Below, piece after piece: positions 4,256 to 58,130 of a stretch of DNA of 64,000 nt. The notes under the pieces are model-generated. The model ran no database searches. It saw nothing but the letters and a program-made list of their open reading frames with translations, and had not been told where the DNA came from. Made by a program: the position numbers and the translations under genes. The DNA is from Chloranthus sessilifolius (lineage: Eukaryota > Streptophyta > Magnoliopsida > Chloranthales > Chloranthaceae), in NCBI GenBank assembly GCA_021018995.1, contig CM037587.1:68839604-68903603 (forward strand), in the 5' to 3' direction. Each line of letters begins with the position of its first letter. The first letter of the stretch is position 1.

Positions 4256-5827
4256 TGTTCACTCTACTTTTATGTATCTTAAATTAAGTCTTAACCTATT
4301 GCAAGCGCATAATGGAAATTGCTGAGCTAGTATAGGATCGTTCCCATGAAGACAGGATTTTTCAATATTAATTTAAGTTTTTCTGAGTACTTATATTTAT
4401 CTTTTAAGTTCCTAAACTACTGAAGAAATATGAATAAAGAATTGTATCTTAATCTAAATTTGCAGAAAATAAATCCTAATCATCCTTCTTCAGATTATGG
4501 TCGTTAATCACAATCTTCAGCTACCGGATATTTATGAATTTAAATAGTACTATTACACTATATATCAAGTTCCTAGCATTGGTCGTCAATCAATACTTAA
4601 ATCCTATCAATACAGATTTAATCTAATCAACAATCTCCTAAAACTTGGGCGTCAATCAAATTCTAGAAGACTGAAGATGGAAAAGTAAAAATTGTTACAC
4701 TAATCTGCAAACCTCAATCTGAGTCGTCAATTCAAATTAAAATTCGAAGATATTTACAAAGTAGGAAATTGTAATAAAATAAATCTAAACTAGAAAGCAA
4801 AAGTAGAACCATTCAAAGGGTTGATCTTTCAGCTTCCTCAGTCTTGGTTGTCAGGCAAGACCTTAGAGAACTATGTACGATGTTATTTTATAAATCCTAA
4901 ACTACTTTGATCGGGAAAAAATACAGACCGTAGTTGTCAATTGATGTTGTGAAATTCTTTGATGCTTATTCCTATACTGGGTTCTCTTATTTATATATCA
5001 TAAGGAGTCGGTTTACAAGACTTCTAATTCTAATAAAAGAAATAACTAAAAACTAAACTATCATAATGTAACTGTAATTCTAATTTTATCTTTCCTTGCT
5101 TTCTTTCTGTTGATGCGCTTCTAGATTGTTCAGTAGTAGAGATCTTTTGGAGTCTATCTTTATCAATCTTCTCAGATCCGTGATACGCCAAACTTCTACT
5201 TTATGAGTTTTTCTAATTCAGTGCATGGCAGTGGAGATTTTCATGTGATCAACAACAGTGGAAAAGATTCTATTAGTACAATCATAAATTACGATTGTCT
5301 CTTTTCTTCTCTTTTTATAGAAAATCGTCAATTACGATTTTCTTTCTTCTATAGCTTCCTCTTTGGACGATTCTCTGGATTACGATTGTTCATTTTCTTC
5401 TTTGTATCACTTTTACTTTGAACATCTTCTGGAGAATTGTAAATTTCGATTTCTTATTTTTCAGTATATAACGAATCGCCTTTCTATGCTTAATCATCTT
5501 TTTACTGCTCTTTTGAGTTCATTTTGACGAATATTAACACTTTGGCTCTCTTTTACTGATTTTCTTTAATATTTGCACATCATTAACTTATTAGTAGTAA
5601 ACTAAGTCCTAGCATCACTAAGTTAAGGGTAGTAAAATGGTATATTATGTAACTGATTATAAGCATGTGTGTGTAATAAGCTTGTGTGTAAGATTTAGAA
5701 ATGTGAAGCAAAAGTGAAAAGCATATGTGTAAACTCAGAATACGAAACGTAATAAACATGTGTGTGTTAACTCCGAATCTGAACTGTGTAAAATCTCCAA
5801 ATCTAGCTATGTAATTATCCCAATACA
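4256..5827 (-). mobile_element. 5' LTR of element H
   Basis: The left (3') LTR boundary, TG at 4256, follows from the adjacent primer-binding site. The right boundary, CA at 5826-5827 (sense start TGTATTGGGA), is the best candidate but is not proven by a second LTR. That gives about 1.57 kb. A palindrome array at 5278-5453 lies about 370-550 bp from the LTR start. The stretch encodes nothing recognisable. The 3' LTR is not in the window. Confidence 0.65.
5278..5453. repeat. Array of four AATCGTAAwTTACGATT palindromes in the LTR of H
   Basis: Copies lie at 5278-5298 (ACAATCATAA / TTACGATTGT), 5319-5343 (AGAAAATCGT / TTACGATTTTCT), 5365-5391 (mainly the right arm, TTACGATTGT) and 5434-5453 (GAATTGTAAATTTCGATTTC). 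The first two are nearly perfect palindromes of 21 and 25 bp. Spacing is 41-69 bp. The position within the LTR matches that of unrelated arrays in the other LTRs of the window. Confidence 0.75.
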
Positions 5828-6063
5828 TATTGTTAAACTATATGTTAGAACTTGCACTATGATTTAAGATTCACGCGGAACGAATCCCCATCGTGAACCG
5901 GTACGGCAATGGTTAAAAAAATGACAAAAGGATAAGACATTTTGCTAAAAATCTGAGGTATAAAATAAGATAGGTATGCCCTAATCCTTTCCCAAAATTA
6001 ACGAAAAATCTCTCTTTTTTTTTCTTACATTTACCAAAAAATGATTAGGCATATTGTTAATCA

Positions 6064-6084
6064 GTGAAAAATATCATTTTTCAC
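6064..6084 (+). other. LTR-start hairpin GTGAAAAA…TTTTTCAC
   Basis: A perfect 8-bp inverted repeat with a 5-nt loop starts nine bases inside the LTR. The equivalent hairpin in the LTR of element A is at 41237-41257 (GTGAAAA…TTTTCAC) with a different loop. In the LTR of element B it is only partly kept, near 52112-52130. Confidence 0.6.
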
Positions 6085-6449
6085 CTCCTAACCTGACCTT
6101 TGATGGACCTTTGAGTTGACTAATAATGTGTCTTAAGTGTGTTTTGTAGTAAGCAATAAATTGTAGTCATAGTGCAAACATCCATCTAAAAATGCAAAGA
6201 AGAGACCTGCTGGAGAATTACATCAATACAAAACAGATTCAAAAAGTTCTCATGTAGCCCAAAAGGCCAACAATCAAGCAGATTCAAGGATCCTCAAAAT
6301 TCTATGGCAATGTCATGTGTCCAACTATGTACGCATGGGAGCAAACCAGCAGCTGCATTTGATGAAGATTGAACCCCTCAAAGGCTACTGAGTGCTAGCC
6401 AAATGAAGGACAGCACCCCAAACTTTGTGCCAGTTGTGGAAGCAAAGAA

Positions 6450-6960
6450 CAGAAGACATCGAGAGGTTATTTCATCCATTCGATAGGTCTGTGTGCTGAA
6501 ATAGAAGTTGTCGAGAGGATGTGAAGCTGTATTTCAACCTATCGAAAGGTACTGAGGTGAAGAAGTTAACACATCAAGCGATTTACAGCACCTGTCAAAT
6601 GGTTTAAATTGCAACAGAAGAACTTGTCGAATAGTGCAAAAGATTCTGTCGAGAGGTCACCTGATGCAGTTATTCAAGCGAAGTGCAGAAGACTTAAAAT
6701 TATACCTGTTGAGAGGTTCCCTAAACCTATCAAACAGTCAAAGCCAACATGTCAAGAGGATACCTGAAGCTGCAGCCAATCTCACGAGGTTACATTCAAC
6801 CTGTCGAGAAATACCTCCAACTTGTTGAATAGAGGAACAGAACCTATCGAAGACTTTCCTGAAGCTGCACTAAATCTCGCAAGTTTGCAACAACCTGTCG
6901 AAAGGTAAATTCAACCTAATGAATGAAGCATTTAACATACCTAAAACCTCTCGAAGCACA
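6450..6960. repeat. Array of ACCTRTCGARAGGT-type palindromes in the solo LTR
   Basis: Roughly fifteen degenerate copies of a motif built on TCGA flanked by ACCT/AGGT occur here, for example ATCGAGAGGTT, TTCGATAGGTC, ACCTATCGAAAGGT, CTGTCGAGAGGT and ACCTGTCGAAAGGT. The complete form is an imperfect palindrome. Copies occur in both apparent orientations at irregular spacing of 20-60 bp. The same motif type fills U3 of the LTR of element A and an internal region of A. Confidence 0.75.
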
Positions 6961-8158
6961 ATTTGGGAACTTCTTAGTTTTAGCCACATCAGTAGCTCAC
7001 TTTAGTGCTCTGTGCACACGACCCAAGGCATGTTAACAACCCTTGAGGGTATTTTTGGAATACAAATGAGCATGAATGAGAATCCCCTAACTAACTCACA
7101 TGTACTTGTCCAATTCGAACCAATTGATGGGGGATTCTAGAAGCAAAATCAGCAATATTAGTAGCTCAGAATAACAGAATTATTCCCTTGAGCTCAGAGA
7201 CCAAATTCTAGCTCCATTTCTCTCCAAAATTCCTTCCTTCTTCCTTCTTCCTTCTTACCCATTCTCTCTCTAGCCCAGCCATGGTTGGCTAAATACTTGT
7301 AGCAGTGAGGGTGAGGTAGCTCTGTAAATTTAGAGGCTTGAGAGCATTTGTATGAGGATTAGATGATGCACATACTACAAATCTGAGAATAATGTAATGT
7401 AAGTTGTTTGAATCATTAAATTGTTGGTTTTAGAGTTCATTTAAATCTATAAATCTTGATTGCCATCTGATTTCCCTAGATTTAATATCCCTGTGGATGC
7501 ATGAGCTTGTAGCCTTGCATCCATAGCATCTATAATGATTCTATTGTTCTGATTAAAGCCATTGGATTAGAGGATATCCCTAGGATGATTTGTGACCATT
7601 AAAGCTGATAGAACATAGCCTTAAGATCAATAAAATCCTTTAGTTTAGATTGGATTCTTTTACCTTGCATCTGTGCTTGTAGCCAGATGAAGGATAGCTG
7701 CAAATCAATCCTCTGCATGGTTGTCTAACAAATCAATTTTCACTGAAGAGCAAAATCCCAAGCTGCTATTCTCCACCTTTGATTTTAATTCCCCAAAACC
7801 TTTTCTCTATATCTTTAAACTTGTTTTCTACTCTTCTCTGGATCACTGGCATTTTCATTTAATTTCTGTAGTTTTAGTAGCGTGAAAACCCCTTAAAACA
7901 TCCCCACTTTCCTTTCTTGCTTTATTTTAAATTAGGATAGGATAAAGTGCCAGATCTATTCTAGATCTGGAGATTTACTATATTTTGAAACACATTTTCC
8001 TATGGACATACCCCTTCTTACCTCTTTAAAGCATGCTGCAACAGCCCTAATTCTTACAAGCCTAGTTGCCTTACCTTTGTGTCTTTTGCTGTGAATTTTC
8101 TATTAGTGTGTTGTTTTTAATCTCTTAATAATAACAAGGTAGGCAATACAACACATAT

Positions 8159-9273: not shown

Positions 9274-10213
9274 TGTAGACACCCAAATTTGGCCTAAGGT
9301 GCAATCGATATGTACTTCGAGAAGGGTATACTTTTTAGCTTCCGAAAGTATTCCCCATAGTAATTAACCCTTACGAATCAACCTGAACCCATAGTAATTA
9401 ACCAAAACCATAGAAACCCCAACCTAACCCATATAACTTGAACTAAACCCACAGTAATTAGCCAAGTTTTTTTTTTGCTTCAGAATTGGGCTCCAATTCA
9501 GGCTATGGACTTCTCAGTTTTTTTTTGAAAAACACTGTTCCTAAAGCATGCATGCATACTATGCACGCATGCCTTAAAACCTTGATTTTCATGAAAAATG
9601 GCAGATTTCATAATTGGGGTTTGACTAGTGGACCATCTCAGACTTCTAGGTGTATTTTTTTAGGACTGTTATACCCCTCCCAACTTTCAGTTTTACCCTT
9701 TTTCCATCCTACTCATCCCTGTCATTTACCATTAAACCCAAATACCCCTTCTCCAAGTCCTAGAAATCTTAGAAAACCTTTGATCAAAGCATTACCTAAT
9801 TTATGAGCCAATTAGTGAATTTACCACCCCCTAATCACCTCAAACTCTATAAATAGAGAGCCACCCCACCCTCCCCCCCTCCTTGTTAAGAGCTTTTGAA
9901 ATTCTAAGGAAAGAAACTATAGAAAATTGCTCCCAAACATTCCCCATTCCTAACCTTCTAAGTCCAACCTTTAGCTTACATCACCCTCACTTTTTCTTAA
10001 CTCATTTGCCATCGGAAGCTCGCCGAAGCTCACATTCACGCAAGGATCCGACGTCGGTGCTATAAGGTCCCAAGAGCTCTGGCTTTCCCCTCTATTCCTC
10101 TATCTCTTTTTTCGCTTTTCCTCTATCCTAGAATTTAAGCCGTTACACCACTGAAATTTTGGTGATTGCGAAGGGCTCAAATAGGATCAGAGAGCCTTTA
10201 GCCAAGGGGAAGT
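9274..10213 (+). mobile_element. 3' LTR of Tat-type element G, truncated
   Basis: The LTR starts TGTAGACACCCAAATTTGG, the family-specific start shared with D, E and F. It follows the family alignment, including the CTATAAATAGAGAGCCACCCC segment with a TATA-like TATAAATAGA near 9849. At about 10213 it breaks off in the segment that reads GGGGCACAAATAGG in E, and the LTR of D begins in opposite orientation. It lacks the last 300 bp or so of the LTR. It is probably the target into which D inserted. Confidence 0.8.
9546..9572. repeat. GCATGCATGCATA…TATGCACGCATGC palindrome in the LTR of G
   Basis: One imperfect 27-bp palindrome sits about 270 bp from the LTR start, with arms GCATGCATGCATA and TATGCACGCATGC. 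It occupies the same region of the LTR that holds unrelated palindromes in D, E and F. Only one clear copy is visible. Confidence 0.6.
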
Positions 10214-11826
10214 TGTGCAACCATGGGCTCTCGTGAGTCCGTCGCGACGATGCCCTCATTTAATAAAAAACTAGAGTCGCCACCCAAAGCTTTTGGTGTC
10301 CTGGGAAACCTCAAATCAATATTGAAAGCACCAAAGTGCTAAAATATAACTCTAATTCACCGGCCTAACACCAAAGGCTCTTACGTAGGGGCTTCGGTTA
10401 TCGATCAGGAAGGTGTTAGGCACCCGATCAACCCTCTCGAAAGCGGTCTTTACTTATGGCCAAAATAAAAGGAAAAAAAAAATGAAATACAGCACTTCTT
10501 CTAGCCGAAAGCCACTATGATCCTATCAAGCTCTCCGCAAACACAGAAAATTCGGCAGCGTAATGGCTTGAATCCTTGGATAAAGGAAAAGCAAAGAAGG
10601 TAGAGGAGTAGAGGGGAGAGTCGGAGCTCTCAGGACCTTGTTCCACAGCTATAGACCTTCACGTAGGTGCACTTGATGAGCTTTCGATAGCTTGAGTGGT
10701 TGAAGAGTGGTTTCTAACCTCTAAGGCTTGATAGCTAAGGGGAAGAGGAAGAAGGCTAGGGGGTAGTTCTCTCCTAGACAAAGAGGTTTTTTATGGAAGA
10801 TGGGGTTTAAAGGGAGCCTTGAAGTTCTAGAATTTGTATGGGATTGGTACACCAAAAGTGAATAAAGGATCTCCTAGTCTCTTTCTCTCTCTTGGAAATT
10901 TTTCAAGTCTTTGTAAAGGGAGGGGTGCCTCTCTATTTATAGGAAAAAGGGAGGTTAGGAGGGTACTTAAGAGCTAATTAGGGTTAACAATTAGGTAATC
11001 TTCTAACCTAAGGTTTCCTAGGATCTTAAAGGCATGGAAATGTGGGTATGGTCTTCAATGGTAGATGATAGGGTGGGTATCAAATGACTAGAGGGTTGTA
11101 AATAGGGTAAATGAGGGTGCACTAGTCCTAATGAAACCAACTCTAAACATTGTGATGGTCAACAAGTCAAACCCCAAAAGTAAAATTTGAGTAAAATCAA
11201 AGGTTTACTATAGCTAAGCCTAGCGCATGTATTATCCATGCCAAGCATATGTACAGTAACAGAGAAGTTTAGAGCCCACTGGGGGACCCATCCATGCTTG
11301 GCGTGTATAATATACATGCCAGGCCAAATTTGGGAATAAATGGCCTGGCGTGTGTAATATACACGCTAGGCAACATTCTCCCAGAAAGTGGCTTGGCACG
11401 TGTATTATACACACCAAGCATTCTTATCTCCTCGAGTGGTTCAGAACCTATCGAGAGGTTCATTCTTCCTTGGAAAAGAAGGGCCAACTCAGGTCTGGAA
11501 CTTCGGATCATCGAAACTTTTGATGTGCAACTCGGATCGGGGTGATTCTTGGCTTGTCAGAAAGCTAGGAACCTCTACTTTTTAATGGTATAATATTCAA
11601 TATCAGTAGTGGTCCCTGCTATCCCTACTATATCTCTCTCTAAACATTGCCCAGGAGGGTTAACTAAGGGTTTGGGGAAGTTAAGGGTAATTCCTAAGGG
11701 TTAAGGTAAGTCCTTAAGGATTTGTAAAGGTTTCTAAGGGTATAGGGGATGCTATCAGAAGCTAGGAGGTGCGCCTTTCTTGAAGCATGTTTTGATCAGG
11801 CCTTGGGCTAAATTTGGGTGTCTATG
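10214..11826 (-). mobile_element. 3' LTR of Tat-type element D
   Basis: On the minus strand the LTR starts near 11826 with a slightly altered ATAGACACCCAAATTTAGCC and ends at TG 10214 (sense …GGTTGCACA), about 1.61 kb. The tail sequence to its right (from 11827) carries the family polypurine tract in minus orientation, so this is the 3' LTR of a minus-strand element. It abuts the truncated plus-strand LTR of G, giving an inverted LTR pair. It carries four palindromes at 11217-11419. Confidence 0.85.
11217..11419. repeat. Four CTTGGCGTGT…ACACGCCAAG palindromes in the LTR of D
   Basis: Copies of a palindrome of about 30 bp lie at 11217-11246, 11296-11325, 11342-11371 and 11391-11419. The consensus arms are GCTTGGCGTGT and ACACGCCAAGC around an AT-rich centre (ATAATAT or ATTAT). 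They lie 400-610 bp from the LTR start. The same palindrome recurs four times in the leader of D (18708-18878) and nowhere else in the window. Confidence 0.85.
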
Positions 11827-18310: not shown

Positions 18311-18894
18311 AGTCTTTTTTGGGTTTTGAATTTTTTTTGGATTTTGATTTTTGATTATTTTTGGTTGTTTTTTTTGTGGACAAAACAAATGCACCCTTAG
18401 TATGAGTTTTGGGGCCTTAGAGTTCCCATTTCGGGTGGTATTCATACCCTAAATAATTCTCGAGGCGGGCTCCCAATGTCCTTGGGAGGAATCAAAAGGG
18501 AAACCCTCCGATCTATGTGAAGGCACGAGAAACCATGCAAACAACCCGATCCCCCAGAGCGAGTCAATAAGAGGGTAACCTCTTTTGACCGGCGAGGGCG
18601 GAATGGGTGTCGAAGAGTGCGGGACCTATTAGAGGTTCTAAACCACTAAGCGAGGGACTCGGGGAGGTGATAAAGGCCTCAGATTCGGGTTGCCTAGACT
18701 AGAACAGGCTTGGCGTGTGTATTATATGCGCCAGGCCAAAATCTGGAGGTTTTAGCATGGCGTGTATATTATTCACGCCAGAGTAATTCCTGACAAAAAA
18801 TGTCTTGGCGTGTGTTTTATACACGCCAGGCAAATTTTGGGTAAAACAGGCTTGGCGTGTATATTACATGCGCTAGGTAAAAAGGGACTTACAC
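18311..18894 (-). other. 5' leader of element D, truncated
   Basis: The noncoding leader upstream of gag is collinear with the E leader at 21390-21760. Shared blocks include the CGCCCTCGCCGGTCAAGAG segment, inverted near 18575-18600. It carries the four-copy palindrome array at 18708-18878. It ends abruptly at 18894, where the LTR of E begins, so the D primer-binding site and 5' LTR are absent here. Confidence 0.75.
18708..18878. repeat. Four CTTGGCGTGT…ACACGCCAGG palindromes in the leader of D
   Basis: Copies lie at 18708-18737, 18755-18783, 18803-18831 and 18850-18878, spaced very evenly (47-48 bp). Arms are TTGGCGTGT and ACACGCCA, with an AT-rich centre. This is the same variant as in the LTR of D (11217-11419) and is different from the variant in the adjoining element E. 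Confidence 0.85.
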
Positions 18895-20410
18895 TATAGA
18901 CACCCAAATTTGGCTCAAGGCCCGATCAAGACACATTTTGAGAGAGGCACATCTCTGAGCTTTTGATGGCATGTATAGATCCATTAGGAACCTTCCCGAA
19001 CCCTTAGAAACTATTCAGAACCTAAACCTTGCTTTCTCGAGCAATGGATGAAGAGTGGTGTATTAGGACTAGCTGCGACCTTCTACTATGATCGAATCAT
19101 ATACCATTGAAAAGTAGAAGTCCTTAGCTTTTCAATGAGCCAAGAATCACCGCAATCGGAGCTGTATGCGAAATGATATCGCGCTCCAAATCATAGGGGC
19201 AAATTTGTTATTTTATGGAATTCCCCTTAGGAATTTGGCACAAGTATTACTTGCGCCAAGCCATTTCTCGCCAGAAGTGGCTTGGTGCACCTAATAGTTG
19301 CGCCAGCTATAAGGTGGGCCCCACCATGGGCAGCTAACTTTCAGACCCTATAGAAACACTATTTTACTGAATATATGCCTGACGCATCTATTAGTTGCGC
19401 CAGGCTTATGAACAGTAACCCTGTGTTTTTACCTTGAAAATTGAGATTAGGGTTTGACTTGTTGACCATCCTGACCCTTAGGGTGTGTTTTGCTAGTTCT
19501 GTTGCGCACATTCACTATCTATTTGCAACCCCTTAAGTGGTTTAAAGCCTCACCCTATCATCCACCATTAGAGCTAACCTTCACACCTTTCAAGGCTCCA
19601 AAAATCCTAGGAAACCTTAGATGTCTAGATTACCTAATTTCTAATCCAAATTAGCCTCTAAACACTCTCCTAACCTCTCTTTTTCTTATAAATAGAGAGG
19701 CACCCCCCCTTTTACAAAGGCTTGAAAAATTTGCAAAGTAAGAGATTAAGGAATCCCTTCTCTCTCACGTCTAGTGCACTCTTTAAACAAATTTCAGAAC
19801 CTTCAAACCTTTTAAAAACCTTAGCCTTTCACCTAAAAGCTTTAGTTTAGGTGTGTGCTACCCCCCTAGCCTCCCCTCTCTACCTCTTAGCTATCCACCC
19901 TAGGAGCTAGAATCCATTATCAAGCTATACAAGCCATCAAAAGCTCACCAAAGCAAGTCTACGCAAGGCTCCATAGCTATGCAGCAAGGGCCTGAGAGCT
20001 CTGGCTCTCTCCTCTATTCTTCTACGTTCTCGGTTCTTCCTTCATCCTCTCATTTGTGCCATTACGCCGCCGAATTTTCGATAGGAATGGAGGGGCACAA
20101 ATAGGATTTGAAGGCCCCATAGGCAAGAGGAAGACCTATATGCTCTTTTTATTTCTTTTTTGATTTGTCCAAAAGTAGAGACCGCATTAAGCGGGTTGAT
20201 TGGGTGCCTAACACCTTCCCAATCTATAACTGAAGCTCTTACCGAAGAGCCTTTGTCATAGACCAGATTCAGAGACAATTTTTGGTACTTCGGTGCTCTT
20301 TAAATTTGATTTGGGTTTCCCAGGACATCAAAAGCTCCGGGTGGCAACTCTAAATTTTTATTACGAGTGTGCGTCGTGCGGCAGGATCATCAAAAATCTA
20401 TGGCTGCACA
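18895..20410 (+). mobile_element. 5' LTR of Tat-type element E
   Basis: The LTR starts at a degenerate TATAGACACCCAAATTTGG and ends …GGCTGCACA at 20410, two bases before the primer-binding site, giving 1,516 bp. A TATAAATAGA-like TATA segment lies near 19688. The sequence aligns with the G, D and F LTRs along its length, including the CCTCTATTCTTCTACGTTC and TTGGGTTTCCCAGGACATC blocks. It carries three palindromes at 19234-19405. Confidence 0.9.
19234..19405. repeat. Three TTGGCGCAACTA…TAGTTGCGCCA palindromes in the LTR of E
   Basis: Copies lie at 19234-19262, 19280-19307 and 19377-19405, each of about 28 bp. Arms are close to CTTGGYGCAMCTA and TAGTTGCGCCAGG. They lie 340-510 bp from the LTR start. 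The same variant occurs three times in the leader of E (21247-21368). Confidence 0.85.
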
Positions 20411-20412
20411 AA

Positions 20413-40995: not shown

Positions 40996-41236
40996 TTTAA
41001 GACCTGTCTTCACTTCCTTTCCTTTGTTCTGCTGCAGCCACACATTCCAAGGGTTCAATGATGTGCTGCCCTCTGGTGTGTTGTTGTTGGGTCTGTATAG
41101 TGCTAAGAGATGGCTTCTTTATGGGCATTCTTAAGCAGCTTTCTGCCTTATTACCAGCTTTCACTGTTATCTACAAACGACACTCAACAGAGGCTTATTA
41201 GTGCGCTCACAAGTCTGTCAATGGTCAGGTTAAAGG

Positions 41237-41257
41237 GTGAAAAGTGGCATTTTTCAC
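41237..41257 (-). other. LTR-start hairpin in the LTR of A
   Basis: GTGAAAA and TTTTCAC form a perfect 7-bp inverted repeat around GTGGCAT, nine bases inside the LTR. It is positionally conserved with the solo LTR hairpin at 6064-6084 although the loop differs. Confidence 0.6.
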
Positions 41258-41266
41258 TACTTAACA

Positions 41267-43106: not shown

Positions 43107-45905
43107 CTAAGATTGGGCAATGGGCTGTTTTCCTTTGGGGTCGATAGCAACAGCAGAATCAGAATCGGAATCGGAATCGGAAGGAAAAAGGGAAGTGGGG
43201 TCTAAACCAAGAGCTGCAGCAGTCTTCCTTCGTTCTGCCTTTGTCATTAAGATGTAAGGGGCAGCAGGTTGGGTAGGGGGCTGGGTTGAAGAGGTTGTTT
43301 TAGACTGGGCAACAGGCCTCTTCCCTTTTTTGGCAGGGGCAGCAGAGGGGGCAGGTCGTTTGGAAGTGACTTTCTTCCTGGGGGGAGCCCTTTTGGGTTT
43401 TGGAGGGGCAGTTTGAGTGGGGGGGTTTCCTGGGCTAGAGGAGGGTGCACATCCACAGGGGGCGTGGGATGAGGTTGAGTTGAAGGGGGGGGGGTAGGGT
43501 GGCGAGGCAGGAGGTGCTGGAGGAGGGGCAGTGGCAAGAGGGGTGGGTTGGAATGGCTGAGAGGTAAGGGAAGCAACCTTTTTCTCTAGGATGTCAATCT
43601 GTCTGGCAGCATAGAGCAGGTTGGCATCAGATAGTTCTTTGGTGGCCTTGAGGATTTCCTGAGCATTGATTACGTTTTTCTTGAGGAGCTCAGAATTCTT
43701 CTTCTCATATTTGGCATTGAGTCTCTCAGCCACTGCCACTTGTTTTGCTGACTCATAACGAGTCAGGATTTCAGACCATCATTGAGAGATATCGCAGAGC
43801 TGAATTTGGTGTTCTAATTCGATGTTGGCGATCCTCTCCTCATAAGGGGCCTCAATGGAATCCCGAAGTGCAGCCATACCTCTCAAGATATCCCTGTGGA
43901 TGTAAGGGTTGTCCCTCATTACACACAGGAGGGTGAGGTAGGGGGTATGTACATGGATTGGCGAAGGACAATAGGCAAGGACAAGGGTGTAGTGGGTGAA
44001 GAGGAGGGGGTGGAAAGAACCAAATCCTCCCACGGATCAGTTTGGGTGGAGGCATCCTGGAAAATAGGTGGGGGGGAGGTAAATGGTATAGGGGATGCAA
44101 CTGCAGGGGGAACCAGTAAATTTGGGGAAGAGGGTACAATGGCCTGTGGTGAGGAAGGTATGGGGAGAGCAGGTGCAGCTACTTCCTCAAGATGAGCAGC
44201 TGTGTGGTGTGGATTGGGTATTGGTGAAACAGGAGGGGATAGGTGAGGGGGATGAGGAGTGGAAGAGGATGGGATAAGGGTGGATTGAATTGATTGGAGA
44301 CACGAGCTCATGAGGGCTGGGTGTCGGTGTTGATGGTTAATTGGGACTGAATGGATTGGAGGATGGACAGGATTTGAGTGAGGGTGTCAGGTTGGGTGGG
44401 AGTATAAGGGGCTAGTGCGTGGACATGTTGGAAAGGAGAGGATGGTGCATGGTGAAAATGAGGAGTGGGGTGGGGGGAGTCAGGAAGTGGGGTGTACTCA
44501 TGAGCGACATCCTCCACAATTAAGGTCATGAGGGTTGTGAACCCAGAAGTGGTGACAGGTCCACACCCTGTGGAGGCAGAGGGGTTGAAGATGGGAGAGA
44601 AGTAGAAATGGGTTGGGTACTGGGTGGAGAAGGGATGGTAGGGGTAAACTTGGATAATGTGGGAGGTTCCAGGATGTCAGGGTGGAGGACTGGGGAGGTG
44701 GGTGGAGGTAAAACAGGTTCAGAGGTGAATGGGGGGAGGTCTGGTTCAAGAGGGACTGATACAAAAGGGAAAAGCAAAGTGGGTGGAGGTGTGGGTAGTG
44801 TGACAGGTATGGTGGGTGGGGAAGTGGCTAAGGGTTTCTCTGCAGGAGTCTCTGCTGCCACGGACTTGGTTGTCTTCTCAGCCACCTCCCTTCCAATTGG
44901 TTGGCCTTTCTTAATCAATGTGAGGCTGGTTGACCATTCTCGCTTACCATACAATTTAAAAGTGAGCTTCTCCATTGGTTCAGATTGCTTAATCATGTAT
45001 TTGCCAGTCCTGAGTAGACATGTGATGAGTCTGCAAAAAGGTAGGCCACCTCCTTTAGCAAAAGCTTGCCTCTTCCGCACCTTGTCATTGATATCCACCA
45101 TTGTCTCAAAAATCAGCATAGGTGCATTCACAAATTGCCCCTTTAAACAAAAGTATAGTGCATCCACTAAAGGGGTCCTTCTCCCTTGCAAATGACCAGA
45201 GACATAGACATTTTTCCTCAGAATGGTGTCAATGAGTCGAAGGGTAGGATGAAGGTCTCTTCGCATCAAGGATTCACCAGTGCCCACTATCCCATTAGTA
45301 AGCTATTTAGCCATTTCCCAAAATGTGGCCCCTATAGGTGCTCCCTCAACTCTGGTGGAGTCAAGTTGATATGGGACTCCAAAAGCTATCCCAATATCTC
45401 TGCAATCGATCGTTAGCTACCAATCATCAATCGAGATTTCCAGTGTATCCTTAGCTCCAGGTACCACCTTCTTCGTCAGGTTCTGGTACCACAATTTCAC
45501 TAATCTGGGATAAACATTTTCTTTCAAGGGTGAAAGCAGGGGTAGCAGACATTCTTTTTTCAAGTATTCTAATGCCCCCTGGCACTCCCCAATGTTGGCA
45601 AAATATGCCATATCAAAATCCATTTCAGGGACAAGACTCAATTTTTCTACAAACTCATTGGGGGTAGTTAACCCTGCAGGCAGTTCAACTGGAGGGGCAG
45701 CTCTTGCTGATGTATCTTCTACTCTAGGTTCCTGAATCTCAAAAACTTTGGATTTCTTAGCTTTAGGGTTCTTTATGGGTGAGATTTCAGTGAGCTTCCT
45801 CTTGACAGGTGGTTTGTCAGCTGGCTTCGACTTTTTGGAAGATTTGGGGGTGGAAGCAGTTGTTCTCCGGCATATGTTCGCGAGGGCTTCCTCCAGCTCA
45901 TCCAT
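43107..45905 (-). pseudogene. Extra ORF (Athila ORF2) of element A
   Basis: The N-terminus starts MDELEEALANICRRTTA and is followed by a Lys-rich bipartite NLS-like stretch (PPVKRKLTEIS, PKAKKSK). A conserved domain follows (MDFDMAYFANIGECQGALEY, LVKLWYQNL, then HPTLRLIDTILRKNVYV, TPLVDALYFC, CRLITCLLRTGKY). It resembles the putative plant transposon protein domain (Transposase_32-like) of Athila-group ORFs. The rest is a long Pro/Ser/Thr-rich segment, a short coiled-coil-like part (AAVAERLNAKYEKKNSELLK), a basic KPKRAPPRKKVTSKRP stretch and an acidic SDSDSDSDS end. TAG stops lie near 45415 and 45308, and the Pro-rich part has frameshifts. It sits where env-like ORFs lie. The function is unknown; a nuclear nucleic-acid-binding role is only inferred. 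Confidence 0.75.
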
Positions 45906-46199
45906 TTTACTCGGCAGAAATTAAGCTTTCACCAACTTGAAGCGGAGTTTGAGGTGTGGAAATTAGAGGATCGACAAATTGATGGGGAGGAAAACAATTG
46001 ACCTCACAATACCTAGGGTTTAACTGAAATTGTACTGTCCAGCTCCAATTTTTCCAAAATTAGGGGCAAAATGCTCCTATGTGTAAGTTGAATGTTCTGA
46101 CAAAAAGGCAAACTAAACAGCTGTAGGTTCTATGAGGGATTAGTGAAGGAAGAGGGAGGCGACTGCGAGAGGGATAAGAGCTAGGGTTGCAGAAGGTAT

Positions 46200-46620
46200 G
46201 GAATGAGGAACAAATGACCTATCGACGAGTATATAAAATGTGAAATACGATTCTGATAGGATGAACTGGATGGTTTTGATAGGTTCGTGTGTCCTGTCGA
46301 AAGCATAGCAGTCATAACTTTAAAAATTGGGTGATTCGATAGGATCTCGATAGGTGGAACCATCCTTTCGATCAGTTTAATCGACAAATGAATCTCCATT
46401 TCGATAGGTTCCTGATTGGTTCTAGAACCTATCGAAATCTTCATTTTTCATATCAAAAAGTTAGTTTTACTTATCGAGAGGTTCAGTACCTATCAAAACC
46501 ATCAGTTATCCTGATGAAATAATCATGTGACCTATCGAAAAGTGAACTCGACCTGTCGAAGACTTCATAAAAATCAAATCAAACTGCATTTTTGGGCATT
46601 TGTAGTCTCAGTTCTCAACA
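46200..46620. repeat. TCGATAGGT array inside element A, upstream of the extra ORF
   Basis: About 12 copies of TCGATAGGTT, TCGAGAGGTT or their reverse CCTATCGAAA/CCTGTCGAA occur between the protease-coding part and the extra ORF. They are the same motif as in the LTR of A. The region lies 300-700 bp upstream of the ORF2 start (45905) in element sense. That suits a promoter or regulatory region for ORF2, though this is inference. Confidence 0.8.
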
Positions 46621-46912
46621 GGCTTAGTTGATGTGGTACCCCATGATTAGATTCTCTTATGAACAGCTCCCATTACCCCAGGACAGCTGAGAATGATAAT
46701 TTAGTATCGAGCATGGCAGTTTTGTTGTTTTCATTTTATTATTTCAAAGAAAAGGGATCAAATGACAACAAAATAAAAAAAAACTACAAACAAAAATAGA
46801 GTATGGTACATATGATACATACTGACTGCAGCGGTTAATCTGGAGGGTCTAGAAGGTCCACAGTCTCTTCAGGCTCATCGAACTTGTCACTTTCCATAGA
46901 TCTCTTCCTCAG

Positions 46913-47989: not shown

Positions 47990-48059
47990 TACAAACTGTC
48001 TTCGTGGGTTGTCCTGTGGTTGGCTGGGCAGCCTTCTTCCCTCTCTCCTAGTCTGAGCA

Positions 48060-49759: not shown

Positions 49760-52140
49760 GCTTGCTGCTGACTTTATTGGAGATAGTGATAAGAATGGGG
49801 TTAGTGAAAATAAATCAAAGGTGGATAGAAAACTATAGAGTAGCAAGCCTAAAAATACACAGTCCTGCAAGATACAGGGCCTGTTGTAGCAAGTTTTCAT
49901 AAGTAAGAGTTTGTCCCACATGGAAAGTTGATCTAAAGCCCCAAGAGAGCTATCTTTAGTAGGCCCTCCAGATCTGGCTACAGATCTGGAAATCCTAAAT
50001 GGAAGGGGATTTAAGGTCACTATTATCTAAATCCTAAGGTAACCTAATGCCTAAACTACAGAAATGGTTGAGAAGAATGATGGAGTGTGAGAAAATAAAT
50101 ATAAAAGGATGAGAAGTAAGCTATTAGGTATAGATCTGATGGGTCTTAACTCAGACTCAGATCTGCTACTATAGAAATCTTGTCCAATGGCTACATTATC
50201 ACCAAAGAGGAGAAAGGATCCAACTCACCCCTGTGCCATGATCCAATCCCTTATGGCTATAACTTGTCCACTTGAATGGTCACAGACTATCCAATAGGCA
50301 CTACTTCTTCTAGGCTACCAGCTCAAGAATCCATAGGAACTTCAACCTCTATAGTTCTGTGTGTGGGGCTGGCCTGCAATGTGCACTAGCCTGGACACAC
50401 AGAACCACTAAGAGTTTGAGTACTAGTTTTTAAGCTTAGCCATTCACTACTTTAGAAAGGCAGCAGTGATCCAGTCACAAGCCTTCAATCTCTACAACCC
50501 AGATCAGATCTGCCATCTGATGGTGGGTCTATACAAATACAGGGGAGTCTGTTTGTACACAATCTCTCACAAGGCTACATGCACAAGGGCAGAGAAGAAG
50601 GATCTGTCTTAGATCTGTGGATTGGCCTAACCCTAGGGCTATAATCTATCCACTTAAATGGTCACAGACTATCCACAGAGGCTATCCTCCTCACAGAGGT
50701 CTAAGACAGAAGAAGAACATTGCTGCCACCACCATGTTCACATGGCTACCAGCTCAAGCTCCCATGGGGATTCAGATTTAGTAGATCCTGTGGTGGGGCA
50801 TAGGCCTGCAATGTGCCTAACCTGGAGACATAGGTCACTTGGATCTAAATAAACCCTTAAAAACAATCCTCCATTTCCTACAATACAACTTAGCAATGGA
50901 GGATCTCAAGGCAGCAGCCTTGTATAGAACAACTCTCAAAACACCAATCCCATACATGCATAAGATCCTATTATAAAAATCCATTAAAACTAATCCAAAT
51001 AGACATATAAAGGCATAGCCAGCGAATGTTAGACTATAGAGAGAAGAAAACGGAAAAAAGAAACTACCTAAACCCTAATATTAGCCTACTGCAATTCTAA
51101 AGTTGGTTTCCAGAAGGAGTATAGAAGACCCCTAAACCTAAACTAGGCTTAGGCTTATATAGCAGTCAGCTGTGGGAGCATTAGGGTTAGGAAAACCCTA
51201 ACTTATCAATGTTATCGTGGCCCATTTCTGTTCCTTAGATGCCTTGGGGCGTGTGCATGAAGATTAGAGCATTGGAGTGCGTGCCCTAGTTGCTGGAAGT
51301 TCCTAGATTGCCCCTACAGAAGTGGGGAGAAGTTAAGATCTCGAGCCTCGCTAGGTAGAAAGGCTTTCCAGGTCTTGTCATGTGATAGAATTAGCGTCAC
51401 GAAATTGAATTGACTTGAAGCTCTTAGAGTCGCGGGATTGATACTTTGGTCATCGCGAGGATGCTCTGGTCGTCGCGAGATTGCTCTTTCCATTTGAATG
51501 GCGCGGGAGTTGCGCGTGCGATTCGTTCCTTAGTGAATCTCGCGAGGATACTCGCGAAGAAGCCATGCGCATGGGCTTCTGGATCGCGTGAGCAGTTCCC
51601 TAAAGGATTGTATCCCGCGGCCACTGCACGACAGCTACACTCAGGAATGCCTGGAGCTCTCTCTTCTCAGTGAATCGTGCGAAGATTAAAGGTAACTTTC
51701 TTGAGCTACGCGATACTACGCGAGAGCTTATGACTAAGCCTCGCAAGAACTGCGTGAAGTCTACTTTCTAGGCTCTTCTATCATTCATCTGTACGAGAAC
51801 AGTGCGAGCAGTTGGCGTGCTGCCTTCAGAAACCCGCAACAGCTGCGCGAAGCATTCTCTCTGATTCAATTTGAACCTTGCGACATCTGCGCGAGGCTCA
51901 TTTCTTAGCTTGTTGCTACTTTCCTGTGCCTAGGCTGCAGCCAATTCTCTGTCTTGGTACAACCTCCTTTCTTCTGAGGAACTTCTGAGGCAACAGTAGG
52001 CTTCTTGGCATGGTTAGGGCCTTATCTGCAGCTGTTGTTTATTACCTACAAAATTGGCTTAACAGTCATTTATTAAATGACTAAGGGTCTAACAGAGATT
52101 AAGTTAAGGGATGAAAAGTGGTACTTTTTAGGTCTTAACA
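49760..52140 (-). mobile_element. 3' LTR of Athila-type element B
   Basis: The minus-strand start is TGTTAAGACCTAAAAAGTAC at 52140, preceded by a polypurine tract (sense TTAGGTTTGGGAG). The left end is uncertain (TG somewhere at 49743-49805). It aligns with the LTR of A: CCTGCAAGATACAGGGCC at about 49864 matches 39203, and the GGTCACAGACTATCC duplicates lie near 50279 and 50660. Its U3 array (51420-51900) is of the TCGCGAGA type and differs from A, but it matches the internal array of B. This supports assigning it to B. Confidence 0.8.
51420..51900. repeat. TCGCGAGA array in the LTR of B
   Basis: At least 12 copies of TCGCGAGA, GCGCGAG, CGCGAAG and relatives occur, for example near 51452, 51472, 51538, 51550, 51582, 51708, 51719, 51845 and 51889, in an otherwise CG-poor LTR. 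The palindromic core is TCGCGA. They lie 240-720 bp from the LTR start, the same window as TTCGATAGGTT in A. The motif matches the internal array at 57440-57790. Confidence 0.8.
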
Positions 52141-53990: not shown

Positions 53991-56900
53991 GGTCTTAAGA
54001 AGAGGAAGAATCTGAATCTGAATCTGTAAATCAGTCCCAGCCCATCTTTTGTGCATGTTTCTTAAGTGCAGCTTTGTCCTCTTTCTTGCGGGCTTGCTTC
54101 TCAGTTGGACTTGTTTTCTACTTAGCTTTGCCCGCAGCTGGAGTTTTTTTCTTAGGCCACCTTGATTTCTTTGGTTGGGTTGGTGGTTTCTTCATGGTTA
54201 GAGCCTTTGGTGCCCTCACCCTCATCTTTCTAGTTTTTGGTTCAGGAGGGATCACGAGTGATTTTCCTTTATCTGGCTCTGTGGGGGCTACGGGGAACTT
54301 TCCTTTATCTTTGGGCTCAGGCTGGCCAGGGGGTTGTGCCTCCTCAGACTGGGCAATTGGCTCTTTGCCAATTTTAATAAAGGCTGCTGTGTAAGAAATC
54401 CTCTTAACAATGACTTTCTTCTGTTAAGGATAAGTTTGCTCAGTTGGAGGAGCAGTAAGGGTCTTGGTGGGTGGAGGCTGCTCTGTAGGAGGTGATGAAG
54501 GAGGGGCAGCAGGGGCCTTCCTTTTATTTGGCTTGGCATGTGGTTATGCCTCCTCAGACTGGGCAGCTGAAGTTTGGGTAGCTGGAGGCTGAGGTTTTGG
54601 CATGCGGATAGAGAGTGGGGTGGGCTGCTAAGCCGGCAAATTGATTTTGGCTTTGAGGAGGTCAGTTTCATGGATTTCTTTTTGGAGTCTGAAGATCTCC
54701 TAGGCATTGTTGAGCCTCTTTTCGAACAAGCTTGCTTTCATTCTATCTGCAGTAGTATTGGCTTTCTCCAGCTCCAGATTCAGTTGATAATAAGCAACTA
54801 TAGATTTGGCCTTCTCATAGGCCTCCAAGATGTTGGTCCACCCCAGGGAGATTCCCAGTAGTTGCTTTCTGTGGGCTTTCTCAAGTTTGGCAATCTGCTG
54901 CAGTAGGGGGGTCTCAATGGACTGCCTAAGTTGGGCCATGCCCCTCAGGACATCCCTCCTAAGGTAGGGATTGTCCCTCATGGCATGGAGGATGGTGAGG
55001 TAGGGAGGAATGTAAAAAAAATGTTTGGGTGTGATAGGCAGAGAGGAAGTGGAAGGAGAAAACTGTGATTGGTCCTGGGTGGGGAAAGTGGGGTTAACAG
55101 TGGGTAAGTCTAGTTGTTGGGTGAGGGTAATAGGTTCTGGGTCTGTTTGTGTCTGTTTGTCAGTGAATGTTGGAGGGGGTAGGAAAAGAGGTGGGATAGA
55201 AGGCATGAGGGGGAAAGAAAATGAGGTAGGCTCACTAGGAGTAGGGTGATGGGGGAGGAAAAATGGGAATGGTGAAAGGTATGAAAGAGAATGCTGGGGT
55301 TGTGGGGACAGGGTTGGGAGGGAAAGGACCAGGGGGGTTGGAGTGGATTATTGAGGGATGGGTGGGTTGGTCAATGTGTGTAGGGTGGATTTGATGGATG
55401 TGAGTTCAGTCTGCATCTGGTCCTGGGTGTGTGTAGTGGTGGATAGTTGGCATTGGATGTCTTGGATGAGGGAGAGTGTTGGAAGTTTGAGTTTGTGTTT
55501 GTGTAGAAGATGGCACAGGTTGAAAAGGTGAGGAAGGTGCATGATGGAAAGTGGAAGGAAGGGGAGATTGGGGTTCTGGTGAGTGATGTTGTGATGTAAT
55601 TGGGGAGTCTAGGAGTTTGGTGTAGTGGGTGGGCATTGTGTCAAGGAAACTAGCCATAAAGGCTTGAAATCTTATGGTTGTGCTAAGGTTTAAGTCTATG
55701 TCTGGGAATGGGGATGTGATAGGCATGGCAGGGGTGGTGTCTTCTTCAATGTGAGGTGTGTCAGTGGGGATAAAAGGGATTGTGGGTAGTGTCTGGGAGA
55801 TGGTGGGGGTTGTCTCAGTGGTTTTCCTTTTATTGTAGGAAATGAGTGGAGGGCTGTCAGATTTATGTGAAGATGATGGGAGTATTGGGGCTGTGTATTG
55901 AGGTAGGGTAGGAGATGGTGAGGGGCTGACATGGGGGGTGGTGTCATCCCAGGTACCAATCACAGGTGAAAGGGGTGTAGGGGAGGGAGGGAGAGATGTT
56001 GATGGTTGAATGGGAGAGGATGTTGTCAGGATTGGGGATCCTTGAGTAAAAGGTGGGGGGGAAGTGGGGCTGCTGCAACAGTGGTGGTAACAGGCTTTGG
56101 AATCTCCTCTGTAGTGACAGGGGTGGGCCTTGTAACAGCTGCCTCTTCTGACTGCTTGGGAAGGGCCTGAGTCTCAGCCTTCTTCTTCTTCTGTGCTTCC
56201 ATCAAGCTTTTGCTTATTCCCCATTGCCTTTTGGTAAAAGTTGTAGGAGTAAAGGTGGTAGTCTCCTCAGATTTTGCTATCTTGTACCCCCCCTTTATTA
56301 GCAGCTTGGTGATGACTCTGGCATAGGGGAGTGTGTGTGGCTTCTTATTCTGCCCCAATTTCTCCACCAGATCCTTCATTAATTCGAACATTAACCAGGC
56401 GGCATGGAAACCATGGCCCAGAGAGAACGAGTAGACAACATCAGCAATAGGAGCTCTCCTCTCCTGCTGATGGCCTAAACAGTAAATATTCTTTCTCAAG
56501 ACCTGGTCAATGAATAGGAGTCCAGGCTCCAACTCTCTTCTTCTGATAGAATCCCCTGAGGCCTTAATCCTCTAGTCAAAGACCTTGCAATTGTATCAAT
56601 TGAGGCACTCAGGGGGGGCCATATCTACAGCTAAGGTCAAATGTAGCTGGGATACCCAAAACCTCAGCAATCACCTTAAGGCTAACTAGCATTTCGAAAT
56701 CATCAATCAACACCAAGAGTCCTGCCTGTCCAGCTTGGTCCTTGGTGACCCTGATGTGCTGGTAAAAGAGTTACACTAGCCTAGGGTAGGCTAGTGCTTG
56801 TATTCCTCTCATCAATGGTGTCAGGCCGGCCTTGCTCATAAATTGAACGGTAGGGGCAGAAAGAGGCTCCTTCTCAAAGAAGGGCAGGTCGAAAGCTGTC

Positions 56901-57099
56901 TCAGGCTCCAAGGGGATTGAAGCCATGAGCTCGGAGGGTATAGGAAACTCAGGGGTTGGCTCCTCCATCTCCTCAACCACTTCCTACCCTTTTTTCTATG
57001 CCTTTGAAGTCTTGACCTTTTTAGGAGTGGTCTAAATAGGGGCCTTATCCCCCTTTTTTTTGGTGCACTCTTGGGGGCCATTCCAAACTCTACTTTCAA
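53991..57099 (-). pseudogene. Extra ORF (Athila ORF2) of element B
   Basis: This is a homologue of the extra ORF of A. The N-terminal part is decayed (MAPKSAPKKRG near 57080), then FPIPSELMASIPLEPETAFD (56940). The conserved domain is at 56532-56026 (LLFIDQVLRKNIYCLGHQQE, PIADVVYSFSLGHGFHAAWL, LPYARVITKLLIKGGYKI). A long Pro/Ser/Thr-rich region follows, then a helical segment at 55206-54700 (MRDNPYLRRDVLRGMAQLRQ, AYEKAKSIVAYYQLNLELEK). A basic K/P-rich tail near 54100-54300 and an acidic SDSDS end near 54020 complete it. Stops and frameshifts break it in several places. The order NLS-like, conserved domain, Pro-rich, coiled coil, basic, acidic is the same as in A. Confidence 0.75.
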
Positions 57100-58130
57100 A
57101 GATAAAAATGGGGGCCTAAGATTTGAGTGCTTACCCTAAAATTGTAGGGTTTGGTTTGATCTGATGCACAGCGCACCGCGAGATCTCTGAGTAGAGGGCA
57201 ACTGATGGGGATGATGTTAGGAACTAATCTGTAGATTCCTTATGTGAATGATGGGTTGTAGGATGGACGCTAGAGGAGAGAGGGAGAAGAGCGTCGAAAG
57301 CTAGGGTTTCGCTGGATGAAGAAGGAAGCGAGAGTACTAGAAAGGGAGACAAGCGTGGAGTTAAAATACTTGTCGCTAAGCTTGGTGCGCTGTGGAAATA
57401 TATGGTCGCGGGATTGGAAATGAAACCTAGCGAAGGTGCTATTCAACTTGGATTGCACGACAATCTCCCAGGTTCACCTTGGAGCGCAGGACAGCATGTG
57501 AAGAATTCCATGTGAATTGCGCGAGAGGCTCTCAGGCCTCCTTTTGGATTGCGCGAAAGGCTCTGAGGTTCACTTTGAATCTCGCGATAGCTAATGAAGT
57601 ATTCCTTTTGAATTACACAAGAGTCTCTCAGGCTTCCTGCTGAACCTCGCGACATCTAGTGAAATGTTCTTTGGATAGCGCGAGAGGTTCCCAGGTTTAC
57701 CTTAATCTCGCAATAGCTATTGAATGGTTCTATGTGAACTGCGCGAGAGTCTCTCAGACCTCCTTTTGAACCCAGTGACAGCAAAGTAGTAAACAGAGAG
57801 CATGTGCCCTCTGTTCTGCCATTTCCATTTGTGCTATGGCTGGATCCTAGGCATGACTCTCACCACCTGGGGTACCCCCAGACACATTAAGATTAAACAT
57901 TAAAGTATAGACAGTAAAAATCACCATCCAACATTATGCATTCAAGCAAAAACCATCAATTCAAGAGCAGTAATCATCAAACCAAGCATAAAGAAATCAG
58001 ACCAGACAGGTCCAGATTCAAGTGGGGCCACTAAAATTTCCTAGAGAATTTGAATAAAAGAAAGCAAGACAAATCTAACAAAACCAAAGTACATATGATA
58101 CAATATTGACACACCTGTAGATCAGTTTAA
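57100..58130 (-). other. Noncoding spacer between pol and the extra ORF of B
   Basis: About 1 kb between the integrase end and the extra ORF. Apart from the 32-bp array (57440-57790), no motif or reliable frame is visible. The equivalent spacer of A (45906-46912) has the TCGATAGGT array in the same place. Confidence 0.7.
57440..57790. repeat. 32-bp alternating GCGCGAGAG / CTCGCGATAG tandem array in B
   Basis: Nine or more units are spaced 30-33 bp apart (motif positions 57519, 57551, 57582, 57614, 57647, 57678, 57708, 57741, 57773). Two unit types alternate for most of the array: GCGCGAGAGKCTCTCAGGC and CTCGCGAYAGCTANTGAA. The effective period is therefore about 64 bp. The array lies 350-700 bp upstream of the extra ORF in element sense and uses the same TCGCGA/GCGCGAG core as the LTR of B. 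Confidence 0.85.

Follow-up and report, generated by a model that had tools for sequence, protein, structure and literature searches.

Element-specific arrays of CG-containing sites match between LTR and interior in decayed Ty3/gypsy-type plant retrotransposons

In a group of nested, decayed plant retrotransposons of Ty3/gypsy type, arrays of short CG-containing sites lie in the U3 region of the LTRs and recur inside the same element, while the type of site differs between elements. The nest makes up the window, the 64-kb stretch of DNA analysed here. In all five elements that have an internal array, each broken and present in one copy, the LTR array fits its own internal array best; two comparisons of relatives provide clean contrasts. 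These results suggest that the sites in the promoter and inside each element change together.

The Pfam domain order is RT, RNase H, integrase in element B and RNase H, integrase in C, which places both in Ty3/gypsy and not among the Ty1/copia Sireviruses; the remaining elements were classed by homology to these two. B has the layout gag, RT, RNase H, integrase and then ORF3. From layout, A, B, H and the solo LTR S are presumably Athila-like, and C, D, E and G, given layout and a G-patch in C, presumably Tat-like. No pol was detected in A, the only element with similarity to PF20167 (21.4 bits, under the 45-bit cut-off). The window gave no Rfam match at the gathering score and no tRNA. In IMG/VR there was no exact match to the Tat-like LTR start and no relatives were found with one integrase piece and one RT piece as queries. 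The LTRs concerned are as follows.

39198..41266, minus strand: A LTR; start at 41266 taken from a TGTTAAG that follows a purine-rich tract; the lower end is approximate
49827..52140, minus strand: B LTR; start judged by eye, lower end approximate
6055..8065, plus strand: solo LTR S; upper end approximate
10213..11826, minus strand: D LTR
18895..20412, plus strand: E LTR; end approximate, PBS next at 20413-20430

The arrays and single sites are:

40450..41010, minus strand: A LTR array (U3); 21 sites, half-site TCGANAGGTT, full form AACCTNTCGANAGGTT, many gaps of about 21, 31 and 52 bp
46190..46630, minus strand: A internal array; 14 sites of the same type, between gag/protease and the 3' accessory ORF
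6440..6970, plus strand: S array, A-type; 18 sites, with the strongest helical phasing
51410..51910, minus strand: B LTR array; CGCG-centred, CGCGAGAGGTT-like, degenerate
57390..57800, minus strand: B internal array; between integrase and the 3' accessory ORF, CGCG gaps 32, 31, 65, 31 and 63
11217..11425, minus strand: D LTR array; three clear 27-bp palindromes with dyads at 11310, 11357 and 11405, and a worn copy at about 11232 (7/12 pairs)
18700..18885, minus strand: D leader array; four copies of the D LTR palindrome, dyads at 18722, 18769 and 18817 and a fourth, positioned by eye, at 18864
19225..19415, plus strand: E LTR array; three 27-bp palindromes, dyads at 19247, 19294 and 19391
21240..21375, plus strand: E leader array; three worn E-type palindromes (7-8 of 12 pairs), dyads at about 21261, 21308 and 21355
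5278..5460, minus strand: H LTR array; AATCGTnAATTACGATT-like, with TATATAAATA 283 bp downstream on the minus strand
2600..2780, minus strand: H internal array; resembles the array of the H LTR only weakly
9547..9575, plus strand: G LTR, single palindrome; dyad at 9559, 11/12 pairs
11444..11461, no strand: single perfect A-type palindrome GAACCTATCGAGAGGTTC within the D LTR, that is, in the other lineage

The motifs that the original prediction had assigned to U3 and internal arrays are present where it had placed them, and they stand out without prior knowledge of their positions. A blind scan of 236 intervals of 540 bp counted the positions that fit one CG-containing 9-mer, with at most one mismatch, on either strand. 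The best 19 of the 236 intervals all overlap arrays already reported in that prediction, with best counts of 15 (A LTR), 11 (A internal and S), 9 (B LTR), 7 (D leader), 6 (B internal) and 5 (E, D and H LTRs). Shuffled sequence, proposed at the outset as background, gave maxima of 4-5 in 12 dinucleotide shuffles. The E leader, the H internal array and G are absent among the top 19 intervals. Imperfect palindromes number 44, against 14.3 +- 4.1 in 100 shuffles, indicating a general excess of palindromes. Those containing CG number 13 (2.2 +- 1.6 in 100 shuffles), and neighbouring CG-palindrome pairs no more than 60 bp apart number 4, against 0 in shuffles; in a separate palindrome listing, 9 of 15 CG-containing palindromes fall inside the reported arrays. 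The scans found no array in the C LTR, and the K array had no clear partner when scanned against the window.

Not every array is palindromic in the manner first described. G, listed as an array, has one palindrome. The repeated sites of A and B are real, but they are only half-palindromes, around TCGA or CGCG; the exact motif given for B, TCGCGAGA, occurs three times within a degenerate site. Perfect A-type half-sites are distributed over plus and minus strands as 7 and 0 in the A LTR, 1 and 5 in S, and 2 and 1 in the A internal array, so that the one-way half-sites of the A LTR (7/7) and, mostly, of S (5/6) make many sites asymmetric; at up to one mismatch the counts are 15/3, 7/7 and 5/5, respectively. 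A and S have a common site, yet the S U3 at 6202-7262 is unaligned to A at E<=1e-5.

A new finding is that A-type sites are spaced by whole helical turns. Over distances of up to 150 bp, the spacing of sites in the A LTR, the A internal array and S has its strongest period at 10.4-10.5 bp, as if the sites lay on one side of the helix. The pooled cosine for these A/S-type arrays is 0.54, compared with a null of 0.03 +- 0.05 that reached this value in none of 500 cases. Taken by itself, the A LTR is modestly phased (over all periods, p=0.018 at 150 bp and 0.12 at 70 bp), and the B LTR has no helical phasing (p=0.17). Most dyads in D and E are separated by 46-48 bp, about 4.5 helical turns.

The claim that the same variant recurs in the LTR and the interior of an element held in five of five elements under three scoring schemes. 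When every LTR array is compared with every internal array, the counts for own pairs (H 24, D 110, E 43, A 579, B 136) are higher than all mismatched counts in the same row and column, and two other schemes agree. Shuffled LTR arrays reached the own value in 0 of 200 cases, apart from 1/200 for H in one scheme. When each LTR array was used to search the rest of the window, the 300-bp stretch that fitted best was the element's own internal array in all five cases, the best and next stretches scoring 109 and 10 for D, 207 and 98 for A, 103 and 33 for B, 36 and 28 for E (the runner-up being the D leader) and 17 and 16 for H. The contrasts are A with B and D with E: within each pair the internal arrays are correspondingly placed and their type differs, and each fits its own LTR. 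The D and E leader palindromes are closer to their own LTR in 7/7 cases, the best of 35 labelings. H, flagged from the start as the weaker case, is indeed weak, as a PWM built from its LTR misses its internal array. Within the limit of two contrasts and one weak case, the idea that each element has two arrays of its own recognition site, and that these switch in a coordinated manner, is thus supported.

The arrays also have a regular position relative to promoters and accessory genes. In 6/7 LTRs the edge of the array is followed, 193-285 bp downstream, by a TATA motif; in S, the sole TATAWAW within the 541 bp scanned sits 488 bp off. The second array follows gag or pol in A and B and lies in the 5' leader in D and E; in all four an accessory ORF comes about 0.3-0.5 kb further downstream (B being estimated via homology). 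No accessory ORF was found for H. TATA occurs in two of the five internal regions (E and H), and the stretch from internal array to ORF has none in A, B or D. The accessory ORFs are:

43107..45920, minus strand: A 3' accessory ORF3, in pieces; partial Transposase_32 (PF20167, below its cut-off)
54319..57135, minus strand: B 3' accessory ORF3 pieces; homologous to A ORF3 from 56938 down, upper limit estimated
21734..22786, plus strand: pieces of the E 5' accessory ORF, which lies between the leader array and gag; its counterpart in D is at 17544-18310, minus strand

Over the first 109 codons compared, the E and D ORFs differ by 0.22, 0.17 and 0.43 at the three codon positions, resembling the gag/protease control (0.27, 0.18, 0.51); the pattern of their second part is weaker (0.38, 0.30, 0.44).

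From this arrangement we infer that each element may offer two clusters of sites to one sequence-specific protein, probably dimeric, that would bind double-stranded DNA. The cluster in U3 would act upstream of the LTR promoter and the internal cluster upstream of the accessory gene, such that a common factor at both would drive or de-repress genomic RNA and accessory gene together. Were a lineage to change the factor or its specificity, both clusters would have to change, and the arrays would be element-specific yet matched through selection for a shared reader. That one such protein serves both clusters and co-regulates the two transcripts is, in our judgement, reasonably probable. Among the candidate readers raised initially (a DNA-binding protein, methylation control, or a self-pairing RNA or DNA structure), the protein is favoured by the helical phase of the A-type arrays, the null result for RNA folding in B and the lack of an overall G.U excess.

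Matching could arise without any reader if the internal array were repeatedly copied from, or recombined with, its own LTR array. The near-fixed 46-48 bp units of D and E, in which several linkers resemble one another both within LTR or leader and from one to the other, fit such homogenisation, as does a 126-bp tandem repeat in the B internal array. Some A and S flanks also exceed chance: maximal flank identity is 16/24 between A LTR and A internal sites (expected about 13), and 17 within S and 15 within the A internal array (expected about 12), pointing in part to local duplication or copying. However, mean flank identity between the A LTR and A internal arrays is near random (7.8 versus 7.4 of 24), so that their likeness is largely limited to the site, A spacing follows variable multiples of about 10.5 bp and not a single unit, and the D and E leader flanks align with each other and not with the LTR. 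We regard homogenisation as an unlikely explanation. The palindromes might instead work as RNA, forming hairpins or dimerisation/packaging signals of the genomic RNA. Pieces of 150 nt from D and E do fold far better than shuffles (z -4.1 to -6.8), with milder values for A (-2.5 and -5.6), S (-2.5) and H (-2.1), and in E alone do G.U mismatches outnumber A.C (6 versus 4). B pieces, however, show no folding advantage over shuffles (z -1.5, -0.9), sense-strand palindrome mismatches overall comprise 10 G.U and 19 A.C, and A-type phasing tracks the DNA helix, making a role as RNA very improbable. Scarcely better are the prospects of arrays that are CpG-rich islands for methylation control without a specific reader. 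The A, B, S and H arrays do retain CpG and their flanks have less (observed/expected 0.76 and 1.00 in A, 1.21 and 0.80 in B and 0.64 in S; flanks 0.21-0.26), a difference of about 3-6 fold in A and B, and Sirevirus boxes are likewise reported to define CpG islands (PMC2829016). The D and E LTR arrays, though, are not enriched (0.44 versus 0.37 and 0.45 versus 0.46), CpG in the E leader is below its flanks, and CG content alone leaves element-specific sites of 10-16 bp and their phasing unexplained.

If a protein does bind both clusters, it could be the element's own accessory product, the Athila-like ORF3 or the Tat-like 5' ORF, acting on U3 and upstream of its own gene in a Tas-like feedback or as a VANC-like anti-silencer. 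We offer this only tentatively. In its favour, the internal array of A, B, D and E each time precedes an accessory ORF. In sunflower, the 3' aORF of an Athila element, which is similar to PF20167, is reported to have a nuclear localisation signal (PMC11728184), and the A piece at 45417-45920 has lysine-rich stretches. Tas is reported to bind both LTR and internal promoter (PMC7390438), and VANC motifs to co-vary with the protein (PMC5735166). Between A and B the ORF3 pieces are 30-50% identical, compared with 45-68% for longer gag/protease pieces. Against this, Pfam shows no DNA-binding domain in the ORF3 pieces, and D, of the other lineage, holds a perfect A-type site. One A ORF3 piece gave 922 candidates in a set of 5.8 billion proteins, none at E<=0.001, and thus lacks homologues for a deep alignment; it had no PDB sequence match at E<=1, and its structure model, built from a two-sequence alignment with B, is uninformative (pLDDT 41.8, pTM 0.21). 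More doubtful still is a wider proposal, that accessory ORFs encode fast-evolving DNA-binding regulators, that each protein and its helically phased private arrays, in U3 and upstream of its own gene, switch together in a self-reinforcing manner, and that this arose in parallel in Athila-like and Tat-like elements and in Sireviruses (as RM boxes).

The closest known layout is that of Sireviruses, Ty1/copia elements in which, according to Bousios et al. 2010 (PMC2829016), element-specific CG-containing palindromes occur in many copies, beginning 200-400 bp into the LTR and ahead of TATA; the RM motif recurs upstream of the extra (env) gene and the arrays are CpG-rich. The arrays described here are similar in that a palindrome is repeated in the upper LTR half, upstream of TATA, with the reservations that A and B are only partly palindromic and S lacks a nearby TATA. 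The motif is found again upstream of ORF3 in A and B; D and E differ, their second array being in the 5' leader. The same text terms RMs Sirevirus-specific, with a CGG-CCG core in all elements but one, whereas the cores here are other than CGG-CCG and the elements are Ty3/gypsy.

Partial likenesses extend to other systems. VANDAL elements and VANC, which we use as an analogy, also have dense, short, noncoding, family-specific motifs that evolve together, but there the element is a DNA transposon, the motifs have one orientation and are not described as palindromic in that text, and the reader is demonstrated (PMC5735166); here the element is a retrotransposon, orientation is mixed at relaxed match and the reader is only putative. 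Foamy virus Tas likewise has one group of sites in U3 and another within the element, ahead of an accessory gene, although its targets in the two promoters are little related (PMC7390438), unlike the same site in both seen here. Retand, a plant Ty3/gypsy element, has family-specific tandem repeats and accessory proteins (antisense TRP28 ORFs) suggested to bind DNA; its repeats, however, lie between pol and the 3' LTR, and matching LTR arrays are not reported in the part of the paper available (PMC11963269). Among the matches listed in a search of titles and abstract beginnings of open-licence PMC papers, there was no report of matched arrays in Athila- or Tat-like Ty3/gypsy elements.

The Sirevirus RM layout thus appears, as our results suggest, not to be confined to Sireviruses. 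What the accessory proteins of plant retrotransposons do is reported to be unknown (PMC11728184); with matched cis arrays preceding the genomic promoter as well as the accessory gene, they would gain a concrete, testable role. Together, the elements may form a natural series for how a transcription circuit alters its recognition site in two places simultaneously.

The DNA contains a nest of broken plant LTR retrotransposons, as delimited by self-comparison and Pfam over the 64 kb, with LTR copies of ~61-78% alignment identity. No near-identical LTR pair was detected at E<=1e-5 in the self-comparison of the window; thus every element has a single copy here, and no copy appears intact. The lineage names, which we assume from layout and Pfam rather than from an RT tree, place A, B and H (minus strand) and the solo LTR S (plus strand) with Athila-like elements, and D and C (minus) and E and G (plus) with Tat-like ones; the strand of H is based on a gag piece, TATA and a poor primer-binding-site match. 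Element B has the Ty3/gypsy order gag, RT, RNase H, integrase, followed by an extra 3' accessory ORF (ORF3). Element A (41266-49471) has gag/protease and ORF3 with no RT or integrase detected, a non-autonomous layout. Tat-like LTRs start with TGTAGACACCCAAATTTGG or a variant with 1-3 changes, C contains a G-patch piece, and a short inverted repeat, GTGAAAAAT..TTTTTCAC, stands at the LTR start of S (6063-6085) and A (41237-41257).

The arrays, clusters of repeated CG-containing sites in U3 and again inside the same element, are real. A blind scan counted, in 236 windows of 540 bp and with no locations supplied, the positions matching one CG-containing 9-mer. The best 19 of the 236 all overlap arrays placed by the original prediction, with up to 15 matching positions per window vs best-window values of 4-5 in 12 dinucleotide shuffles; the E leader, the H internal array and G are absent from these 19. 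Palindromes are in general excess (44 vs 14.3 ± 4.1 in 100 shuffles), those containing CG number 13 vs 2.2 ± 1.6, and neighbouring CG-palindrome pairs within 60 bp occur four times in the window and in no shuffle. A separate palindrome listing puts 9 of 15 CG-containing palindromes inside the predicted arrays. On a finer 250-bp scan, a raw count of 68 of 1276 windows held at least four copies, mostly in arrays; those beyond lie at 0.4, 4.5, 26.9-27.3, 37.7 and 43 kb, and include two additional clusters:

400-600, K array: TCTCGTTGCGGCGAGA exact at 416-431 and, with three mismatches, at 522 and 551; no clear counterpart elsewhere in the window
26900-27290, F cluster: adjoins the C LTR; ATTGYGCRC-like CG-containing sites at 27005, 27024, 27114 and 27254

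Site type differs among elements. The A and S half-site is TCGANAGGTT, arranged about a TCGA centre (complete form AACCTNTCGANAGGTT); with at most two mismatches there are 21 sites in the A LTR, 14 in the A internal array and 18 in S, a density of 32-36 per kb in arrays vs 3.1 per kb elsewhere. Perfect half-sites mostly keep one orientation, antisense to the element (7/7 in the A LTR, 5/6 in S), and looser ones occur in both. The B site is CGCG-centred, CGCGAGAGGTT-like and more degenerate, and that of H is AATCGTnAATTACGATT-like. D has a 27-bp palindrome (e.g. CTTGGCGTGTATAATATACATGCCAGG) and E a palindrome of similar scaffold (e.g. CCTGACGCATCTATTAGTTGCGCCAGG); in each of the four D/E arrays the usual dyad spacing is 46-48 bp (one E interval is 97). 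G, predicted to carry an array, has a single palindrome, and the C LTR (27541-29217), related to D and E, has no palindrome array in either scan. A perfect A-type palindrome lies at 11444-11461 in the D LTR, although D belongs to the other lineage, and a looser A-type likeness was seen by eye near 18626 in the D leader.

Six of seven LTRs (A, B, D, E, G, H) have a TATA motif 193-285 bp downstream of the U3 array, or of the one palindrome of G; in S, where 541 bp were scanned, the sole TATAWAW is 488 bp from the array. The internal array precedes accessory ORF pieces by ~300 bp in A, 370 bp in E and 400 bp in D (from coordinates), and in B lies within ~470 bp upstream (by homology); no accessory ORF was found for H. 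Identity in the D/E 5' accessory ORF is 61% across 109 codons, where third positions differ in excess, and falls to 50% across a later 96; ORF3 of A and B is 30-50% identical. Between internal array and ORF no TATA was found in A, B or D, and the internal regions of E and H contain one. Just downstream of the internal arrays, A (46180-46195) and B (57300-57312) align at a common AACCCTAGC, which we take to be telo-box-like; this region is a possible transcript leader of ORF3.

The claim that the same site variant recurs in the LTR and inside the same element held up. In one window with five informative elements, none intact, the own LTR/internal pair gave the highest count of its row and column in 5/5 under three schemes (CG 9-mers with one mismatch, all 10-mers with one mismatch, exact 8-mers), H being weak. 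Own values were reached by 0/200 dinucleotide-shuffled LTR arrays, except for H (1/200 in one scheme), and by 0/200 random stretches outside arrays per cell. When each LTR array was queried against the whole window, its own internal array was the best other stretch in 5/5, H barely, and a PWM from the H LTR did not find the H internal array. Since labels permuted within the two groups give a perfect assignment with a chance of 1 in 12, the strength of the matching rests on the sizes of the counts and on two contrasts between arrays at equivalent positions. The sequence surrounding the arrays is homologous between the D and E leaders (17764-18834 aligning with 22305-21244), and in both A and B the internal array stands after the upstream gene and before ORF3, yet array type follows the element. 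D/E leader palindromes are nearer their own LTR in 7/7, the best of 35 labelings. The considerable match of the E LTR to the D leader (27, against 43 for its own pair) is expected from the scaffold that D and E sites have in common.

Site-centre distances up to 150 bp in S, the A LTR and the A internal array are most strongly periodic at 10.4-10.5 bp (7-16 bp tested), with a pooled cosine of 0.54 vs 0.03 ± 0.05 for random placement with site numbers kept (0/500). Phasing is modest in the A LTR alone (with all periods considered, p=0.018 at 150 bp and 0.12 at 70 bp). Neighbour gaps have best periods of 10.0-10.5, those of S being 21, 31, 31, 53, 32, 22, 60, 21, 22, 32, 20, 21, 22, 30, 21, 21 and 32; A-type half-sites outside arrays give a cosine of 0.14 (100 pairs). 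In B, phasing is seen in the internal array (p=0.004, its gaps not independent owing to a 126-bp duplication) and not in the LTR (p=0.17); the two together give p=0.02. Such phasing would be expected if a protein bound cooperatively along a single side of the DNA double helix.

For the function of the sites we prefer a protein that reads DNA to a structure in the RNA. Although 150-nt pieces fold better than shuffles in D/E (z -4.1 to -6.8), A (-2.5, -5.6), S (-2.5) and H (-2.1), those of B do not (-1.5, -0.9), and sense-strand mismatches in D/E palindromes are 10 G.U and 19 A.C, despite 6 and 4 in E alone. Wholesale copying between arrays is unlikely in A, where mean flank identity is close to random (7.8 vs 7.4 of 24) even though some pairs exceed chance (A LTR/internal, within S, within A internal), and possible in D/E, where several linkers resemble one another. 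The A, B and S arrays retain CpG (observed/expected 0.64-1.21) vs depleted flanks (0.21-0.26), and the H array also exceeds its flanks; the D and E LTR arrays differ little or not at all. The matched arrays are therefore probably regulatory sites for one factor per element. That factor may be a host protein, slightly favoured by the A-type palindrome in the D LTR, or the element's accessory protein, slightly favoured by the position of arrays upstream of accessory ORFs.

Sireviruses (Ty1/copia), as described by Bousios et al. 2010 (PMC2829016), have the same layout, there termed Sirevirus-specific: element-specific palindromic RM boxes start 200-400 bp after the LTR start and precede TATA. They recur before env in nine elements with env, and in none of the four without. 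Unlike Sireviruses (PMC2829016), the elements here are Ty3/gypsy with other site cores, and the second array of D and E is in the leader. The VANDAL/VANC system (in the account of PMC5735166) and foamy virus Tas (in that of PMC7390438) are functional analogies, and a PF20167-related 3' aORF of a sunflower Athila is reported to have a nuclear localisation signal (PMC11728184). The interest of the matched arrays lies in their generality across retrotransposon groups, in the coordinated switching of sites and in the phasing.
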